Part shown: one piece after another, positions 814 through 9,678 of the stretch
Position numbering within the stretch: the stretch's first letter is position 1
How the letters are laid out: each line of letters starts with the position of its first letter
DNA from: Clostridiales bacterium
GTDB taxonomy: Bacteria > Bacillota > Clostridia > Lachnospirales > Lachnospiraceae
DNA: 64,000 nt
Assembly (NCBI GenBank): GCA_020859985.1
Contig: JAJBVD010000042.1
Span: 62,001 to 126,000 of the forward strand
Reading direction: 5' to 3'
The notes under the pieces: generated by a model
Seen by the model: only the letters and a program-made list of their open reading frames with translations
What the model was told of the DNA's origin: nothing
The model's database searches: none
Made by a program: the position numbers and the translations under genes

Positions 814-2148
814 TCACACTTTAAACGCCTCAGCGCCGCCAGCATTCAGCATCTCCAGAAAAGCCCCCAGCCGCGTTGACGTCTGTCCCTCACCGCCGTG
901 GCTCCGGTCACAGCCGTCCCCATCCAGAATCAGAGTAGGAATACCGGCTGCTTCAAACCGTTTCTTTGCAAGCTGCGAGCCGCCGAGCGTATGCTTGCAG
1001 CCCCAGTGGTTAAACCAGACGACGCCGTCCGCTTTCGTCTCTTTTGCGTGGCGGATGCCCGCTTCGATCCGGCGGCTGATACTGCCGTTCAATGCATTAT
1101 AAAGCAGCCGCATCGCCATATCCTCATACGGATCATCCGAATGCGCCTCCAGATTCGCGACCTGTGCCAGCTCACAGCCGACAATCTGCGCATTTTCATT
1201 CAGCCGAAACACATTCTTTACCGCATCTGACCAGAACGGGATGATGTGCATCCAGTAAATGCGCTTTCCCCGGGCCGGACCGGCCTTTTCCAGATCAGCC
1301 AGCAGTTTTTCTGTATAGGCCTCTTCCTCTTTTGTCCCCAGCAAAATATTGTTGGTCATGCCGCAGTACAGCGGCGACACCAGATCCGCCGGGATATATT
1401 TATCCACCCGTTCTTTCTGAAAACGGTCATAATTTGCAAGCGTCCGTCTGCTCCGTGCCAGGCGTTCCCGCAGGCTGTCCTCGTTAATTTTTTTACCGGT
1501 ATGTTTCTCCAGAAAAGCCGCCAGTTCACGCAGCTGCTCCGCCACGTAAGCTACGTTCGCGTCATCCGGCGACAACAACCCGTCATCTTTCGTAATTGGC
1601 ATTTTCGTCCGGCACGCGGGTATATCGATTGCAAAACATGGCACTCCGTACAGTTCCGCCAGCTCGCGGAACGTCAGCAGGTTCGCATCGCATGCAAGCG
1701 TCGTGTAGACAATACAGCGCGGTGCTGGCAAAAGTCCCTTTTTTGCTGCTCCGATAAACGTCTTATGATAGCTGCACAGCGTCTCCGAAATGCCGCAGTC
1801 CTCAGCAGTCTGCAGAAACGCCCGCTCCGCTTTTGAAGCGGACAGATAACAGGAAAAGCTCTCCACATTGTACGGAGACAGTCCCACCTCCTGCATCAGC
1901 TCACAGGGCGTAAACACGCTGACCAAAACACTCTGATCCGGGTTTTTCAGCGGCCGCAGCATCGTATCCATCATCAGCCGCGCCAGATACCGGTCTGCCG
2001 GAAGCAGCTCTTTATCCGGCGTAAACCGGAACTTCAGATTCTGAGCCTGCCAGCCTGTCTTTAAAAGAACCCGCGCTTTCGCCGGGTCGGTATCACTCAA
2101 TTTTTCCACATAGTGGCCAAATGTCTCTATAACCTGCAAATCTTTCAT
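814..2148 (-). CDS. 2-hydroxyacyl-CoA dehydratase family protein, first subunit
   Basis: A 444-residue cytoplasmic protein. The C-terminal half has the family signature: a WGCKHTLGGSQ segment, then ILDGDGCDRSH and a GQTSTRLGAFLEML tail, typical of HgdB-like iron-sulfur subunits. Cysteines spread through the chain (VFTPCELM, TLACDANL, HWGCKH, DGCDRS) could ligate a cluster. I place the start at the ATG at 2148, although its SD-like GGAAGG directly abuts the codon. The frame continues upstream to 2214, but those codons simply read through a 27-nt palindromic repeat and have no ribosome binding site. The downstream gene is a related subunit, so the pair probably forms the heterodimer of a dehydratase or reductase. 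Substrate unknown. Confidence 0.78.
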   Translation of the reverse strand: MKDLQVIETFGHYVEKLSDTDPAKARVLLKTGWQAQNLKFRFTPDKELLPADRYLARLMMDTMLRPLKNPDQSVLVSVFTPCELMQEVGLSPYNVESFSCYLSASKAERAFLQTAEDCGISETLCSYHKTFIGAAKKGLLPAPRCIVYTTLACDANLLTFRELAELYGVPCFAIDIPACRTKMPITKDDGLLSPDDANVAYVAEQLRELAAFLEKHTGKKINEDSLRERLARSRRTLANYDRFQKERVDKYIPADLVSPLYCGMTNNILLGTKEEEAYTEKLLADLEKAGPARGKRIYWMHIIPFWSDAVKNVFRLNENAQIVGCELAQVANLEAHSDDPYEDMAMRLLYNALNGSISRRIEAGIRHAKETKADGVVWFNHWGCKHTLGGSQLAKKRFEAAGIPTLILDGDGCDRSHGGEGQTSTRLGAFLEMLNAGGAEAFKV

Positions 2149-2168
2149 CCTTCCATTGCACTTTTTTC

Positions 2169-2195
2169 GTAACTGTTCAATACCTTCACAGTTAC
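2169..2195. repeat. 27-nt palindromic repeat, copy 2
   Basis: Perfect arms GTAACTGT and ACAGTTAC. It lies 21 nt upstream of the ATG of the dehydratase-like gene, so it would form a hairpin in the 5' leader. Confidence 0.9.
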
Positions 2196-2215
2196 GAGCA
2201 CAAACACTGCGCATT

Positions 2216-2706
2216 ATACGATAATTTACAGAAATTGTAAAGGCTGGCGGAAGGCGCAGTCAGAGATATAACGGACTATCAGTCAGAAATATTATCTACG
2301 GATCAGGTCAGAACAAACACAGTAATAAAGAACCGACTAAATATATCTGCGCTTTTTTCAATCAATATATTATATATTTTATTATTTTTTATGTTGACAT
2401 TCGCATTTTGAGATGATATATTGTAGTCATATAAGACTTTGGTGGGCGTTTTTACGCAATCGCATTTCCTGAATATCAGAATTCCTGCGGCCGCTCAAAA
2501 GACATTTTGGACGACAGCAGTCTCTTTCATTCTCAATAATCTTTCCATCAAAGCATTCCAACCTGATGCAGCCTTAGCATTTACCTCATTCTACAAAAGA
2601 AAAATAAATCGCCTTATCCGTTTGCTATTCAGATAAAAGTAACTCATTAATTTTCAAAAACCAATTGTAATTTAGCACGATTTATTGTAGAATGGAGACA
2701 GAATAA
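2216..2706. other. Intergenic region, no convincing gene
   Basis: An AT-rich 490-nt stretch between divergent genes. It holds a strong promoter (2394-2422) facing right. A 65-codon open frame at 2439-2636 has no ribosome binding site and no recognisable features, so I do not call it. Confidence 0.6.
2394..2422 (+). promoter_or_regulatory. Sigma-A type promoter upstream of the Rpn gene
   Basis: TTGACA at 2394-2399, a 17-nt spacer and TATATT at 2417-2422, embedded in AT-rich DNA. It points at the Rpn-like gene, whose start is about 285 nt downstream, so the transcript would have a long leader. Confidence 0.7.
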
Positions 2707-3693
2707 ATGACAGGAAGAAAGCGATCTGTCAGGAAAAAACACAGTTCCGGCAAAAATACAATCCGGGCGAAGCAACTCCCGCTATCCCATACAAATGATG
2801 ACAGTCCTGCTAACCAGATTGAAGATGGAGTGATGAAGACAATGATGGAATTCTTCGCGGAAGAAATGCTGCCGATATTTGGAATCACTCAGAAAGTAAA
2901 AGCGTTTGCTCCCACCGAAGAAATACATCTTGATCTCAAAAAGGGGTATCAGGATTTTAATCTCCTGATGGAGGACGGCAGCATAGCACATTTCGAATTC
3001 CAGTCCACAAACGGCGGAGTCAAAGATCTGCGCAGGTTCCGGGCCTATGAGGCCAACCTCAGCTATCTGCTGCAAAGACCTGTGACTACATACGTACTGT
3101 TTTCCGGAAAGATTAAGCATCCCATGACAGAGCTAAAGGAAGGACTCTATACCTACCGGGTGCAGGCTATTATCATGAGCGAGCGCAATGCGGATGAGCT
3201 TTTGGAGAGGCTGCGCGATAAAGTCAACAGGAAAGAACTACTTACCCGTGAAGATCTGGTCGTGCTGCCGCTGCTCCCGGTATATGGCGGAGAAAGCTCC
3301 CAGTTGGAACGGATTCAGAATGCTTTTGAGATTGTCTCGAAAGCAGAGCAGGTATCGCACGAAGATATCCAGAAAATAGAAGCCGCTATTTATGCTATGG
3401 CAACAAAGTTTCTCAATCACAACGAACTGGAAAGCATCAAAGGAGGGGTCAAAATGACATATCTCGGACAACTGCTGGTAGCTGACGGGCGTAAAGAAGG
3501 ACGTCTGGAAGGACGCCTGGAAGGGCGTAAAGAAGGGCGCCTGGAAGGACGCTTGGAAGGCCACAAAGAAGGACGCCTGGAGGAACAAAAATATACCGAG
3601 CGGGAACGGCTCCGCGCAGATAAAGCAGAAGCCGATGCCCGAAAGCTGGCCGCCGAATTAAAAGAGTTAAAGAAGCAATATGGATTAAACTAA
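2707..3693 (+). CDS. Rpn family recombination-promoting nuclease-like protein (PD-(D/E)XK)
   Basis: 328 residues. The N-terminal two thirds resemble Rpn/YhgA-type nucleases: a Lys/Arg-rich leader, a helical segment, then a nuclease core with an aspartate in GYQDFNLLMEDG followed by HFEFQS, the D...E-x-Q pattern of this PD-(D/E)XK group. Residues after about 250 form a separate cassette: MTYLGQLL, then a four-residue periodic run of GRKE, GRLE and GHKE units, then a charged coiled-coil tail ending KKQYGLN. Rpn proteins cut DNA; some were reported as toxic, anti-phage proteins inhibited by a short product translated from the 3' end of the same gene. A strong internal start lies at exactly the cassette boundary (3454). 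No transposon ends are visible, so 'transposase' is a family label only. Confidence 0.68.
   Translation: MTGRKRSVRKKHSSGKNTIRAKQLPLSHTNDDSPANQIEDGVMKTMMEFFAEEMLPIFGITQKVKAFAPTEEIHLDLKKGYQDFNLLMEDGSIAHFEFQSTNGGVKDLRRFRAYEANLSYLLQRPVTTYVLFSGKIKHPMTELKEGLYTYRVQAIIMSERNADELLERLRDKVNRKELLTREDLVVLPLLPVYGGESSQLERIQNAFEIVSKAEQVSHEDIQKIEAAIYAMATKFLNHNELESIKGGVKMTYLGQLLVADGRKEGRLEGRLEGRKEGRLEGRLEGHKEGRLEEQKYTERERLRADKAEADARKLAAELKELKKQYGLN
3441..3456 (+). promoter_or_regulatory. Internal ribosome binding site and start codon inside the Rpn gene
   Basis: AGGAGG at 3441-3446, a 7-nt spacer, then ATG at 3454-3456, in frame with the large gene. This is a better initiation signal than the one at the annotated start of the full-length protein, and it sits at the junction between nuclease core and C-terminal cassette. 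Confidence 0.7.
3454..3693 (+). CDS. Putative intragenic short product of the Rpn gene (RpnS-like)
   Basis: Initiation at the internal ATG would give a 79-residue protein consisting only of the MTYLG segment, the RLEG/RKEG repeats and the charged coiled-coil tail. In enterobacterial rpn genes a similar in-frame short product was reported to bind and silence the full-length nuclease. Here the evidence is the strong Shine-Dalgarno sequence and the precise match of its boundaries to the cassette duplicated at 3721-3936. Translation is inferred, not shown. Confidence 0.5.
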   Translation: MTYLGQLLVADGRKEGRLEGRLEGRKEGRLEGRLEGHKEGRLEEQKYTERERLRADKAEADARKLAAELKELKKQYGLN

Positions 3694-3720
3694 AGCCTGA
3701 AGATGAATCGAGGGATGAAC

Positions 3721-3936
3721 ATGACGTATCTTGGAAAGCTTCTGGTGGAAGAAGGGCGTATGGAAGGACGTTTGGAAGAACGCCTAGAAGGCCACAAAGA
3801 AGGACGCTTGGAAGGACGCCTGGAAGAACAAAAAATCACCGAGCGGGAACGGCTCCGCGCAGATAAAGCGGAAGCGAAAGTCCTTAAAATCGGTGCGGAA
3901 ATCCAGGAACTGAAAAAGAAATACGGGCTTGCGTAA
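3721..3936 (+). CDS. Free-standing copy of the Rpn C-terminal cassette
   Basis: 71 residues. It starts MTYLGKLLVEEGR, continues with RLEE, RLEG and HKEG units, then a TERERLRADKAEA segment identical to the upstream gene, and ends KKKYGLA. It is thus a diverged duplicate of the last 79 residues of the 2707-3693 protein with no nuclease domain. ATG 3721 follows GAGGGA (3710-3715), 27 nt after the stop of the large gene. The frame also has an upstream ATG at 3703 without a good SD. If the cassette is an inhibitor of the nuclease, this is a second, independently expressed copy. Alternatively it is the remnant of a second Rpn gene that lost its 5' part. Confidence 0.6.
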   Translation: MTYLGKLLVEEGRMEGRLEERLEGHKEGRLEGRLEEQKITERERLRADKAEAKVLKIGAEIQELKKKYGLA

Positions 3937-3941
3937 ACGAT

Positions 3942-4367
3942 TTATATCACGTAGGAATTCGCTTTCGCCATCTGCCATTCCAACAGATCCTCCAGCGTCA
4001 CGTGGTCTACAACATCATTGATCGCGCTGTTAAGGCGATCCCAGAGGATGGAAGTCGCGCTGTCTGCCTCGCCGTCTGAGCCATCCTCAGCATACTCCAC
4101 CGGACACAGACTGCCTTCCGTAAGACGCAGGATCATACCTGCAGTATAGTTTGCAGGGCGGTTCGCAAGCACGTAGCCGCCCTGAGGACCGCGAATACTG
4201 CGTACATAGCCGGCTTTATTCAGAATGGCTATGATCTGCTCCAGATATTTTTCGGAAATATTCTGCCTTCGGGCCGCATCCTTTAAGCGGATCGGCTCGC
4301 CTGAGTCATTGATCGCCAGATCGAGCATCAGGCGAAGCGCATATCTTCCTTTTGTTGAAATCCTCAT
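3942..4367 (-). CDS. Rrf2 family transcriptional regulator (CymR-like)
   Basis: 141 residues with the Rrf2 winged helix at the N-terminus (MRISTKGRYALRLMLDLA, then ISEKYLEQII and IRGPQGGY wing). IscR-type members bind an iron-sulfur cluster through three cysteines near residues 90-105; this protein has a single cysteine in that area (about residue 88, LCPVEYAEDG). That fits CymR-like proteins that sense cysteine synthase or O-acetylserine status. cysK lies immediately upstream in the same orientation, 128 nt away, supporting a role in cysteine metabolism. Whether it represses cysK directly is inference. Confidence 0.85.
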   Translation of the reverse strand: MRISTKGRYALRLMLDLAINDSGEPIRLKDAARRQNISEKYLEQIIAILNKAGYVRSIRGPQGGYVLANRPANYTAGMILRLTEGSLCPVEYAEDGSDGEADSATSILWDRLNSAINDVVDHVTLEDLLEWQMAKANSYVI

Positions 4368-4457
4368 TTTCCTCTGTCTCCTTTTGCAATCTGCTGTCGT
4401 TCCGGCGCCTCAACTACGATTCAAAAAATAATATACGTTATCAAACTTGCTTCTCTA

Positions 4458-5738: not shown

Positions 5739-6410
5739 TTACTCATGGAGCTCGCCGTCAATGATCCGCACGATACGCTTCGCGTTCTCTGCAACGCCAA
5801 GGTCATGTGTAATCATTACAATGGTGTTTCCCATCTCGTTCAGGCGCCGGAAAAGCTTCAGTACTTCTTTTCCGCTTCCCTGATCAAGAGCTCCCGTCGG
5901 CTCGTCAGCCAGAAGAATCGCCGGCTCCCCGACCAGTGCGCGCGCGATCGCCACACGCTGCTGCTGCCCGCCGGAAAGCTCGCGCGGCTTATGGTGCACA
6001 CGATCCTGAAGTCCCAGCATATTGATGATATCCTCGCTCTCTTCCTCCGCTTCGTCCAGCGTCATACCGCGCATCAGAAGCGGCATCACGATATTCTGTA
6101 CGACGTTGTAGGTTGGGATCAGATGGTATTTCTGAAAAATAAAGCCGATCTTTTCATTCCGGATCTGCGTCAACTGCCGTTCCTTCGCGTTGTGCACCTC
6201 AATCCCATCGAGAATGTATGTGCCGCCGTCTGCATGATCCATACAGCCGATAATATTCATCAGCGTACTTTTTCCAGAACCGGACGGCCCCAGAATTGCC
6301 AGAAATTCCCCTTCCTCCACATCCAGTGAAACTGATTTCAATGCATGGAGCTGTGAATTACCGATCTGGTAAAATTTATCGATGTCGCGCATTTCTATGA
6401 TATGACCCAT
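5739..6410 (-). CDS. ABC transporter ATP-binding protein (MacB/LolD type)
   Basis: 223 residues. Walker [10 protein letters not shown] at 41-49, Q-loop glutamine near 93, signature LSGGQQQR at 145-152, Walker B ILLADE at 165-170 and a switch histidine in MITHD. The MNIIGCMD segment after Walker A and the [13 protein letters not shown]-like region are typical of the MacB/LolD/FtsE-like group that works with FtsX-type permeases. It is the last gene of a five-gene operon encoding two adaptors, the permease and a lipoprotein. It would energise the permease at 7900-9678 for extrusion or mechanotransmission at the cell surface. The cargo (peptide, drug or lipoprotein) is unknown. Confidence 0.92.
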
Positions 6411-6552: not shown

Positions 6553-7758
6553 TTACTCTGTACTCACGATCCAGATCTTCGTGATTACTTCATTTCCATC
6601 CGCATCTGTCTCAAAAAGTACCTCAAGCTCATCGCCCGCCTCCAGGATGGAGAAGTTTTTTTCTTTTCCGGTGGAAGTGTAGACCGTCACGCCAACCTGG
6701 AGATACACCGTCGTCGTCTCTTGCGTCGATTCGCCAACGAGTTCGGAAAGATCGGTATCGCCGCTCATAACATCCGCGATGTCGCTCAGATCCACATCAC
6801 CGCTCGAAAATGCCTCCGCCATATCGCTCAAATCCACATCACCGCCTGAAAATGCTTCCGCTATACTGTCCACGTCAATATCGCTGTCGGCAAACGCTTC
6901 CGCCATATCGCTTACGTCAATATCGCTCACATCAATATCACTCATATCCATGCCGCCCATCTGGCCGCCGCCGCGCATACCGCCGCGTCCAGATGAATCA
7001 TCTGTGCTGCTGTCCGCAGATTCTTCTGAACTATCTTCCGATTCTGTAGAAGTCTCTGCCTCTGTCTCTTCTTCGGCTTCTGCATTTGCAGCATTATCCG
7101 TAGTTTCCTCAGAGCTGATCACAGCCTCTTCGCCATCATTCTTTCCATCGGATTCACTCATACCAGACATATTTTCAGAGTCAGAATCTCCCATATCCGG
7201 CATATTTTCAGAATCAAAATCCCCCATATCCGGCGCGTTTTCGGAATCAAAATCTCCCATGTCAGGCATATTCCCGGAACCAAAATTCCCTTCCTGCGGC
7301 ATACCGGAGGTCGCCTCAGAATCGTCTGTCTCCGATTCGATTTCCGTTTCATCGTCCTCACCGGAAACAGTCTCCTTCCCGCTTTCCGTCTCGGTTTCGA
7401 TTTCCGCATTCGCCTCAGTCTCAGAGCCTGACTCTTCCTTTGCTTCCGTTCCGGTCTCAGTTTCACTTTCCGTTCCGGCTTCGGACTCAGCCTCCGTCTC
7501 CGCTCCCTCCTCGGTTTCCTCGATATATGTCAGTTCATTGCCCGTGATCGAGACGACCTGAATAGTTGCTTTCCGCTGCCCCTCGGCCAATTCTGTTTCC
7601 GTCTCTTCACTCGAAAAACCCAGTTTTTCACTAACGGTTCCCACAGCGCCGCTGACCGCACTCTGCGCGGAACCGGCCACTTCGCTTACACTCTCACAGC
7701 CGGTCAGTGAAATTGTCATCACCGCTGCCAGCAGCAGGCTCAAAGATCTTCTTTTCAT
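6553..7758 (-). CDS. Acidic low-complexity lipoprotein of the MacAB-like operon
   Basis: 401 residues from the ATG at 7758; in-frame codons further upstream read through a palindromic repeat. A basic n-region, hydrophobic core and LTGC lipobox mark it as a membrane-anchored lipoprotein. A short beta-type N-terminal segment (KATIQVVSITGNELTYIE) and a C-terminal segment (YLQVGVTVYTSTG ... LEVLFETDADGNEVITKIWI) look like two halves of one domain. Between them lie about 300 residues rich in Glu, Asp, Ser and Thr. These include MGDFDSEN repeats and a run of DxSDMAEAF-like units also found inside the permease next door. It probably acts at the outer face of the membrane with the transporter. No assigned function. 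Confidence 0.75.
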   Translation of the reverse strand: MKRRSLSLLLAAVMTISLTGCESVSEVAGSAQSAVSGAVGTVSEKLGFSSEETETELAEGQRKATIQVVSITGNELTYIEETEEGAETEAESEAGTESETETGTEAKEESGSETEANAEIETETESGKETVSGEDDETEIESETDDSEATSGMPQEGNFGSGNMPDMGDFDSENAPDMGDFDSENMPDMGDSDSENMSGMSESDGKNDGEEAVISSEETTDNAANAEAEEETEAETSTESEDSSEESADSSTDDSSGRGGMRGGGQMGGMDMSDIDVSDIDVSDMAEAFADSDIDVDSIAEAFSGGDVDLSDMAEAFSSGDVDLSDIADVMSGDTDLSELVGESTQETTTVYLQVGVTVYTSTGKEKNFSILEAGDELEVLFETDADGNEVITKIWIVSTE

Positions 7759-7811
7759 AGTTTTCCTCTTTTCTCCGCTTTTCTGACGCGGCCGAGTTAT
7801 GAACCATATTT

Positions 7812-7838
7812 GTAACTGTGAAGGTACTAAACAGTTAC
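7812..7838. repeat. 27-nt palindromic repeat, copy 5 (opposite orientation)
   Basis: Perfect arms with centre GAAGGTACTAA, the reverse orientation of copies 1-4. It lies between the permease and lipoprotein genes. Confidence 0.9.
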
Positions 7839-7899
7839 CCATATTTTAGAAAAACATTCTGTCACCATTCTGCCCTTAACTCAGATCCGCCACACGCAC

Positions 7900-9678
7900 T
7901 TAGTCCGAATTCAGCGCCTCCACCGGCACCAGTTTGGATGCCTGCCACGCCGGATAAAATCCGAAGATCGTACCGGTCAGGATAGAAAACGCAAGTGCCG
8001 CTGCCCAGGCATTGATATTCGCCTCCACGCGAATCCCGTTGTATTCCACGATCGGTGTCACCAGAAAACTGGCTCCGACTCCGAGGAATCCTCCGATCAG
8101 ACTGATCGCAGCCGACTCAAACAGGAACTCAAACAAAATCGTGCTCCGTGACGCACCAAGCGATTTCAGGATACCGATCTCGCCGGTCCGCTCTTTAACA
8201 GAGACGAACAAGACGTTCATAATGCCGATTCCGCCGACGATAAAGACGATCACCGCCATCGCCGAGAGCAGCATGGTCAGAATCTCATTCGAAGACTCCG
8301 CTGCCTCCAGCTTGCTGCTCGCATCGGAAAACGTGAATTCCGCTGTGCTGTAGTTTTCCTCCAGAACGGTTTCCACATTCGCTTTTACCGTATCTACCAG
8401 ATCCACATCATTGCAGATCACCGTGATCACCGGGCTGATGTCCTCGCCCGTAATATATTTGATGCTGGTCTCATAGGGCACAAAGATCGACTCATCCGGC
8501 GTAATACTACCGGAAACCGTTGACGAAGAAGAAAGCACGCCGACAATCTCATACGCGCGGTCGTCCAGATAAAGCGTCTCTCCATAAGCCTCCGCAGCGC
8601 TGCCGAACAGTTCTTTCGCCACGCTGCTTCCGAGTACGCAGACTCTTGAGCAGCTGTCGCTTTCGTCATCCGTAATAAATTCCCCTTCCGCCATGGACAG
8701 GTTACTGACCGTATAATAGCTGTAATATACACCGGCCACAGTATAGGTCTCCGCCTCGGTCAGGTCACCGCCCTCAACCGAAGAACGGGTAGTATAGGAA
8801 ATCGTTGCGTCGTCCACACCGCTCACAAAGGTCTGGATGTCTTCTACATCGTCAATCGTGAGAATGATATTTTCCTGATTCAGACGGTCGTCCGTTAAGT
8901 CTGTTTCGGATTCATTCTCCTCATCCTCAGCAATCGCAGCGGCCGCAGCCTCTGTCTCTTCCTCCGCAGAACCGCTTTCTGCCTCAGCCGCATCTTCCCC
9001 TTCTTCCGCAGCCTCACCAGATACGCCTGCGCCGTTCGAATCGTCAGCCACTTCGTCACTGTCATCTGCAGCGCCGACATCCTCCGTTTCGTCATCTTCA
9101 GAGCCGTCCGCCTCGCCGGAAAACATTTCCTCGATATCGCTCATATCCATCTCGCCGCTCGCGAACGCTTCCGCCATATCACTGATGTCGCTGTCGGAAA
9201 AATCTGAAAAATTACCCATGCCGCCCCGACCACCGCTGCTGTCTCCCGACGCGTCGCTGTCTCCGGAAGCATCGGCGGAAAAATCTCCGCCCATCGTCAT
9301 ACTGCCGCCCATCGTCATATCCCGGCCGCCGGACGAAGAAGCACCATCTGAATCCATGGAGCCCCTGCCACCGCTGTTCCCTCCGCCAAAAAGGTTGCTG
9401 ATATTGCTCATGATCGAACTGCCAAAATCAGAAAACGAAAAGCTGCTGTCTCCTCCCGCTGACGTCTCCTCACCCGCATAGTCATAGGTGATATCAATCG
9501 ATCCGGCATTCAGGCTGGCAAACTGCTCCGCAACATCCATTTGTCCTCCGCGTCCGATGGCGATCACCATCACAATCGTAGCCGCTCCGACAATGATTCC
9601 GATGGATGTCATTACGGTTTTAAACCGATTCTGGTTGATGTTGAGCCAGACAAGCCTTAAAAGCTCTGATAATCTCAT
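7900..9678 (-). CDS. MacB-like ABC transporter permease with acidic extracellular insertion
   Basis: 592 residues. The N-terminus (LLRLVWLNINQNRFKTVMTSIGIIVGAATIV) is the first membrane helix of MacB-type permeases. The C-terminal third has the other three helices with the FtsX-family pattern (VKERTGEIGILKSLGAS, then FYPAWQASKLVPVEAL). The outside domain is enlarged between about residues 75 and 270 by Gly/Ser/Met and then Asp/Glu-rich sequence. Part of it, SDISDMAEAFASGEMDMSDI, matches repeats in the lipoprotein encoded next. Its start overlaps the stop of the adaptor gene by 4 nt, indicating translational coupling. It pairs with the ATPase at 5739-6410. Confidence 0.9.
   Translation of the reverse strand: MRLSELLRLVWLNINQNRFKTVMTSIGIIVGAATIVMVIAIGRGGQMDVAEQFASLNAGSIDITYDYAGEETSAGGDSSFSFSDFGSSIMSNISNLFGGGNSGGRGSMDSDGASSSGGRDMTMGGSMTMGGDFSADASGDSDASGDSSGGRGGMGNFSDFSDSDISDMAEAFASGEMDMSDIEEMFSGEADGSEDDETEDVGAADDSDEVADDSNGAGVSGEAAEEGEDAAEAESGSAEEETEAAAAAIAEDEENESETDLTDDRLNQENIILTIDDVEDIQTFVSGVDDATISYTTRSSVEGGDLTEAETYTVAGVYYSYYTVSNLSMAEGEFITDDESDSCSRVCVLGSSVAKELFGSAAEAYGETLYLDDRAYEIVGVLSSSSTVSGSITPDESIFVPYETSIKYITGEDISPVITVICNDVDLVDTVKANVETVLEENYSTAEFTFSDASSKLEAAESSNEILTMLLSAMAVIVFIVGGIGIMNVLFVSVKERTGEIGILKSLGASRSTILFEFLFESAAISLIGGFLGVGASFLVTPIVEYNGIRVEANINAWAAALAFSILTGTIFGFYPAWQASKLVPVEALNSD

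Follow-up and report, generated by a model that had tools for sequence, protein, structure and literature searches.

How can a nuclease gene carry its own inhibitor, and what is a second copy of the inhibitor part good for when it lies directly behind the gene? This question is raised by an rpn-like locus in a stretch of 64,000 nucleotides (nt) of DNA, here called the window, which is part of a 3.8-Mb draft genome (G000) from the Lachnospiraceae. The locus comprises the long form of the gene, L (2707..3693, + strand; 328 amino acids (aa), from the list of open reading frames (ORFs)), a cassette in its 3' part that would encode a short protein, S, from an internal start (3454..3693, + strand; 79 aa), and a stand-alone cassette gene, S-prime (3721..3936, + strand; 71 aa), with counterparts at loci L045 and L046. 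Most probably, this is a divergent Rpn-type toxin-antitoxin gene with S as internal antitoxin and S-prime as a diverged, recombinable cassette.

All five rpn genes of Escherichia coli make a short protein, RpnS, from inside the gene, and RpnS blocks RpnL where tested, RpnA and RpnB among others (Zhong et al. 2023, preprint, PMC10327210, also the source of the other results in this paragraph). Nuclease activity was shown for RpnA, and mutation demonstrated the internal start in two genes, rpnA of E. coli and a C. difficile rpn gene cloned in E. coli. Addition of one 4-aa repeat to RpnCS abolished the inhibition of RpnCL. Stand-alone rpnS genes exist beside the internal ones, namely downstream of rpnE (ypaA) and, in some strains, of rpnC; these copies arose independently, fusions occur, and YpaA/RpnES is produced in E. 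coli, as seen with a tag. The window locus is, thus, a further case of an arrangement already described: the internal start and duplicated cassette to which an earlier note on this DNA had pointed are indeed present, but their combination is less of a novelty than it might appear.

Selection on the internal start

The earlier note had pointed to an AGGAGG with good spacing before an in-frame ATG at the beginning of the cassette. The ribosome-binding site (3441..3446, + strand) does lie 7 nt upstream of ATG 3454, which is codon 250 of L; an in-frame internal start at the C-terminal domain, typical of Rpn toxin-antitoxin genes, is therefore present at the sequence level. With a calculated energy of -12.3 kcal/mol, the internal site is stronger than that of L's own start (-7.9 kcal/mol), so that the short product would be favoured. 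Among synonymous recodings of the window gene's own peptide, 2.8% equal or beat the real internal site.

Within the genus, homologues were matched in 31 of 47 genomes, and a family search at E 1e-10 gave matches in 25 of 397 genomes, the window's own included. From 70 loci (L044-L113), 62 distinct homologous ORFs no shorter than 150 aa were retained, of which two with an unaligned junction were dropped. The residue aligned with M250 is methionine in all 60 distinct junction-aligned homologues, and their mean ribosome-site energy is -11.06 kcal/mol versus -6.80 kcal/mol when these peptides are recoded synonymously. The observed mean was reached by none of 1000 recoded sets, likewise when genes sharing a junction peptide were represented by a single one (41 genes); the other in-frame methionine codons of these homologues (370 sites) average -2.83 kcal/mol. 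An energy of -8 kcal/mol is reached by 56 of the 60 homologues versus 33% of synonymous recodings. Exact AGGAGG occurs in 38 of the 60, and the residues encoded at the site vary (KEE in 16, KGG in 11, KEV in 11, KGE in 5, and 12 other triplets). Since the peptide varies while the ribosome-binding site stays, and since no recoded set matches the mean, the internal start is, as judged from this strong synonymous-level conservation, under selection, which substantiates the intragenic start proposed in the note. The AAAGGAGGAATTGA-Met arrangement also recurs in four of four rpn relatives on viral contigs (L150-L153; 39-40% identity), two of which (L152 and L153) have an identical protein product.

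The nuclease and its family

L looks like a divergent Rpn nuclease, as the note had held. It matches TIGR01784 with an E-value of 2.1e-4 (21.2 bits), which is below the curated cutoff of 52.1 bits and does not place it in TIGR01784/COG5464 by score; at E 0.001, the family is matched by 13 of 35 homologues (best 1.3e-8). The relationship is further backed by a predicted PD-(D/E)XK-like core and by the Rpn pattern D ... E-x-Q, which L keeps as putative catalytic D83 ... E97-x-Q99 (2953..3003, + strand). The same pattern is found in RpnA, B, C and E of E. coli (D63 ... E82-x-Q84 in RpnA numbering). All 35 aligned homologues have D83 and E97, and Q99 is replaced by E in some. The ratio of non-synonymous to synonymous substitution rates (dN/dS) of the nuclease is about 0.06-0.10 per species pair among three species.

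A PDB profile search with the Lachnospiraceae alignment gave nothing at E 0.1; with the E. coli alignment, 7th0, the RpnA C-terminal structure, was matched. Foldseek against viral structures returned weak matches only, the first named as a PD-(D/E)XK nuclease (E 0.0094). Structural matches to KDO8P synthase were disregarded (root-mean-square deviation near 17); family matches to flagellar FliH and Yae1_N, lying in the repeat-rich part and far below cutoffs, were taken as an effect of composition. The anti-phage defence models of PADLOC-DB 2.0.0, a library that may be without Rpn, yielded no family for L or S-prime at E 0.01.

Two related loci in the same genome deserve mention. One is a second, broken relative of L with in-frame stops (G000:C52:140382-141139; L006, L008, L010, L012, L078). 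The other (L004; G000:C67:42824-43057 and around) is a 437-aa open frame matching PF04754, in which an internal ATG behind GCAGGAGGTACAAAT opens a tail of 88 aa that contains GIEQG repeats and closes with a TERER coiled-coil-like part. Elsewhere, the stretches of L050 (G018:C15) and L091 (G398:C59) each hold two full-length rpn-like genes with cassettes of different length.

The stand-alone cassette

That the cassette is repeated as a 71-residue gene at 3721 proved correct. Its start lies 27 nt past the end of L, behind a linker (3694..3720, + strand) that holds its ribosome-binding site (GAGGG, 3710-3714). The ORF list opens the frame at ATG 3703 (77 aa); start 3721 is preferred because of its better ribosome-binding site (RNAduplex -7.2 versus -3.1) and its homology to the internal start. 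S-prime shares 69% identity with its L cassette in the window, and 71-77% over the cassette in three species, and is a separate downstream gene derived from the cassette of its own rpn gene, as is a stand-alone rpnS. Its tblastn match to L opens at residue 245, five before M250, which, together with its own ribosome-binding site, suggests that the internal cistron was probably copied along with that site. The same pair is found beside the same regulator gene in two sister genomes (G010 and G013), and, outside the arrays described below, the three S-prime genes are nearer to each other than to L; hence, the duplication predates the split of the three species. Counts of synonymous and non-synonymous changes contain too few changes to inform on selection on S-prime.

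A survey of Lachnospiraceae rpn loci for duplicated cassettes, as the note had proposed, found a stand-alone cassette behind 4 of the 57 homologues for which 300 nt or more of downstream sequence is present. In a fourth genome (G012, locus L053), another rpn-like gene of the clade carries an independently made copy, which lies directly behind its parent as in the window; unlike S-prime, it is very close to the parent and is read from an AGGAGG within the parent's last codons.

Both cassettes contain tetrapeptide arrays. That of L and S consists of 8 units of 12 nt (3487..3582, + strand) and begins at residue 12 of S, in agreement with the variable 4-aa repeats that Rpn systems have 8-20 residues after the internal methionine; that of S-prime has 6 units (3754..3825, + strand). 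The L array comprises 8, 9 and 10 units across the three sister species, and the ratio of L to S-prime units is 8:6 in the window and 9:8 and 10:8 in the other two. Two of 15 types of 12-nt unit are private to G013 and common to its L and S-prime. This is only a hint at gene conversion between the arrays, as unit sharing within genomes does not exceed that between genomes in G000 and G010.

The length of the cassette was compared among 17 clade sequences with MTYLG starts (from L044-L074). The array part varies by 4-aa steps from 9 to 45 aa and the tail by 7-aa steps (25, 32, 39, 46 and 53 aa) in 16 of the 17; L053 ends differently. The copy in G012 equals its parent in number of tetrapeptides, and its tail is longer by two 7-aa units. 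The main text of PMC10327210, as consulted, describes 4-aa repeats and does not contain the words "heptad" or "seven amino acid". RpnAL/RpnAS of E. coli and its C. difficile homologue resemble the window locus in internal start, C-terminal short protein and variable 4-aa repeats, and differ from this clade, whose cassette varies also by 7-aa units; inhibition and nuclease activity are demonstrated for RpnAL/RpnAS and predicted for the window locus.

Exchange of cassettes at rpnE

The closest parallel for the tandem arrangement is rpnE with ypaA in E. coli K-12, where a full-length Rpn with an internal start is likewise followed directly by a stand-alone cassette. There, too, the ribosome-binding site was duplicated with the cassette (identical AAAAGGAGAGATTA ahead of the rpnE internal start and the ypaA start), and the repeat numbers differ, ypaA having one repeat more. 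The nuclease domains are barely related in sequence (hhalign probability 8.7%); K-12 RpnE is annotated as inactive, whereas the window gene retains D83, E97 and Q99. The cassette of the window gene consists of a GRxE array and, after it, a TERER coiled-coil-like tail.

We compared 27 rpnE loci, comprising K-12 and 26 non-random picks among 100 matches listed; several of the 27 are near copies of each other, and repeat numbers were derived from cassette lengths. In all, 5,371 E. coli genomes contain a match. Eighteen loci are tandem and nine have a single cassette. Repeat numbers of long gene and copy are unequal in all 18 tandem loci, in nine distinct combinations from 0:1 to 8:6. (At L128 and L130, the tail of the long gene ends slightly differently and was typed "?" by the script; both were counted as L type.) Random pairing of the nine combinations gave no equal pair in 54% of trials, so that active avoidance of equal numbers was rejected; the mismatch shows only that matching is not maintained.

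In all nine single-cassette genes, the end is of the tail type that stand-alone copies have. One of them (L118, no extra repeat) has the same nuclease DNA as a tandem locus (L123, 5:0), with zero differences over 700 nt, and two more (L154 and L157) show no difference from L123 in a comparison of 410 nt. For L117, L124, L137, L155, L156 and L136, the sample held no tandem strain with identical nuclease DNA. The same nuclease DNA with a different cassette indicates that the cassette of one nuclease has been exchanged together with its repeat number, and the recombining cassette suggested in the earlier note thereby finds its counterpart in E. coli. An unrooted nuclease tree, built from a short stretch of 410 nt, puts the first five of the single-cassette genes at three places; the exchange may have gone from tandem to single or in reverse.

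Proposed mechanism and alternative explanations

By analogy with E. coli Rpn, L would be a DNA nuclease. A ribosome starting at 3454 would make S, the C-terminal cassette alone, and S may pair with the identical cassette in L, keeping the nuclease off. S-prime would have arisen by duplication of the internal cistron with its ribosome-binding site before the three sister species split, and its repeat number would later have diverged from that of L. It is then probably a diverged cassette that recombination can return to L, and it may act as antitoxin towards other length variants.

The start itself might be a by-product, in that a Lys/Glu/Gly-rich linker before a methionine needed for folding would resemble a ribosome-binding site by chance. 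It counts against selection that recodings already average -6.8 kcal/mol, that a third of them reach -8 kcal/mol, and that a few in a hundred recodings of the window gene do as well as the real site. These figures leave 56 of 60 homologues at -8 kcal/mol, the failure of every recoded set, and a site that stays as its residues change unaccounted for; given also the mutational proof for rpnA and C. difficile rpn (PMC10327210), a by-product is highly improbable.

The role of S-prime is more difficult to assign: it may be a spare cassette, a match to other length variants, or a leftover. The note's proposal of two antitoxin sources implies that S-prime, under separate control, also neutralises L, perhaps via the conserved cassette ends rather than the array. 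Several observations speak for it and so weigh against the reading preferred here: frame and ribosome-binding site of S-prime are kept in three species, L and S-prime have parts of head and tail in common, and YpaA/RpnES is produced (PMC10327210). The repeat number of S-prime, however, has diverged from that of its L, by 2, 1 and 2 units in the three species, it is unequal in every E. coli tandem locus as well, and a single added repeat abolished RpnC inhibition according to the same source; S-prime is, from these comparisons, unlikely to work as a second antitoxin for the present L. Somewhat less unlikely, though still doubtful, is that S-prime is a leftover, either what remains (the 3' end) of a second rpn gene after decay or a functionless duplication. 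Also to be set against our preferred reading are its changes outside the array, mostly non-synonymous (0-1 synonymous versus 1-3 non-synonymous per species pair), the broken rpn copies in the genus (e.g., on C52 of the window genome, or L069), and the rarity of stand-alone cassettes (the 4 of 57 above). A leftover sits poorly with a copy that begins at the internal start and keeps ribosome-binding site and intact frame in three species, and with the independent origin of such copies in G012 and in E. coli (the latter according to PMC10327210).

Within the preferred reading of S-prime as a diverged, recombinable cassette, we tentatively consider the possibility that it is an out-of-register spare kept for switching, like a silent cassette, and not for neutralisation. 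As a single DNA segment encodes both toxin C-terminus and antitoxin, a recombination event between internal and downstream cassettes would swap both at once and give a self-matched pair with a new repeat number and, hence, a new specificity; in the window clade, both registers, 4-aa and 7-aa, could be changed in this way. The cassette exchange in E. coli makes a spare cassette the most interesting explanation left.

Genomic setting

The locus is flanked by a 466-aa gene (814-2214, minus strand) and by a gene (3942-4367, minus strand) that we take to encode an Rrf2-like regulator. The region around the latter was compared in eight relatives, with both neighbours seen in three. Instead of the block 2155..3945, the same junction holds 57 nt in G009 and 6 nt in G016, from which we conclude that the rpn-like locus was acquired or lost in one piece; in the third (G007), about 3.1 kb of other sequence is present, and the remaining five had no match to the counterpart of the 466-aa gene within the stretch taken. 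Inspection by eye showed no terminal repeats around the block.

A sigma-70-like promoter match (2394..2422, + strand; 11 of 12 positions, with TG ahead of the second hexamer) is a consensus match from a scan of 2200-4400 on both strands, which gave 8 matches versus 3.2 expected from shuffles. If real, it would leave the rpn-like gene a leader of nearly 290 nt (2423-2706). A promoter inside rpn has been reported for E. coli; here, the + strand has no consensus match from 2694 to 3454. No Rfam family reaches its gathering score in 2100-4450.

Further along the window, a 429-aa protein (6553-7842, minus strand) and its neighbour (7900-9678, minus strand), presumably ABC-permease-like, have in common long acidic Glu/Asp/Ser-rich stretches, whose repeats include SENMPDMGDSD and DLSDMAEAFSSGD. 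The two resemble a matched low-complexity pair, and an ABC-ATPase-like gene (5739-6410) lies next to them.

Implications

Among the papers listed by literature searches, none treats this clade, which was not searched by name. The gene-within-gene Rpn toxin-antitoxin arrangement is here extended to a divergent clade of Lachnospiraceae nucleases, in which the internal start bears a clear evolutionary signal. Of the 22 tandem loci compared by tetrapeptide count, 21 have a stand-alone copy whose number differs from that of its toxin, namely all three at the window locus and all 18 at E. coli rpnE; the exception is G012, with equal numbers. As a general point, this mismatch is not found in the abstract, Results, Discussion and legends of PMC10327210. 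If the published repeat-number rule holds generally, mismatched copies cannot serve merely as reserve antitoxins. In the window clade, the 7-aa steps of the tail constitute a second variable register besides the 4-aa steps of the array, and the cassette exchanges in E. coli suggest that stand-alone copies can be donors for changing specificity.
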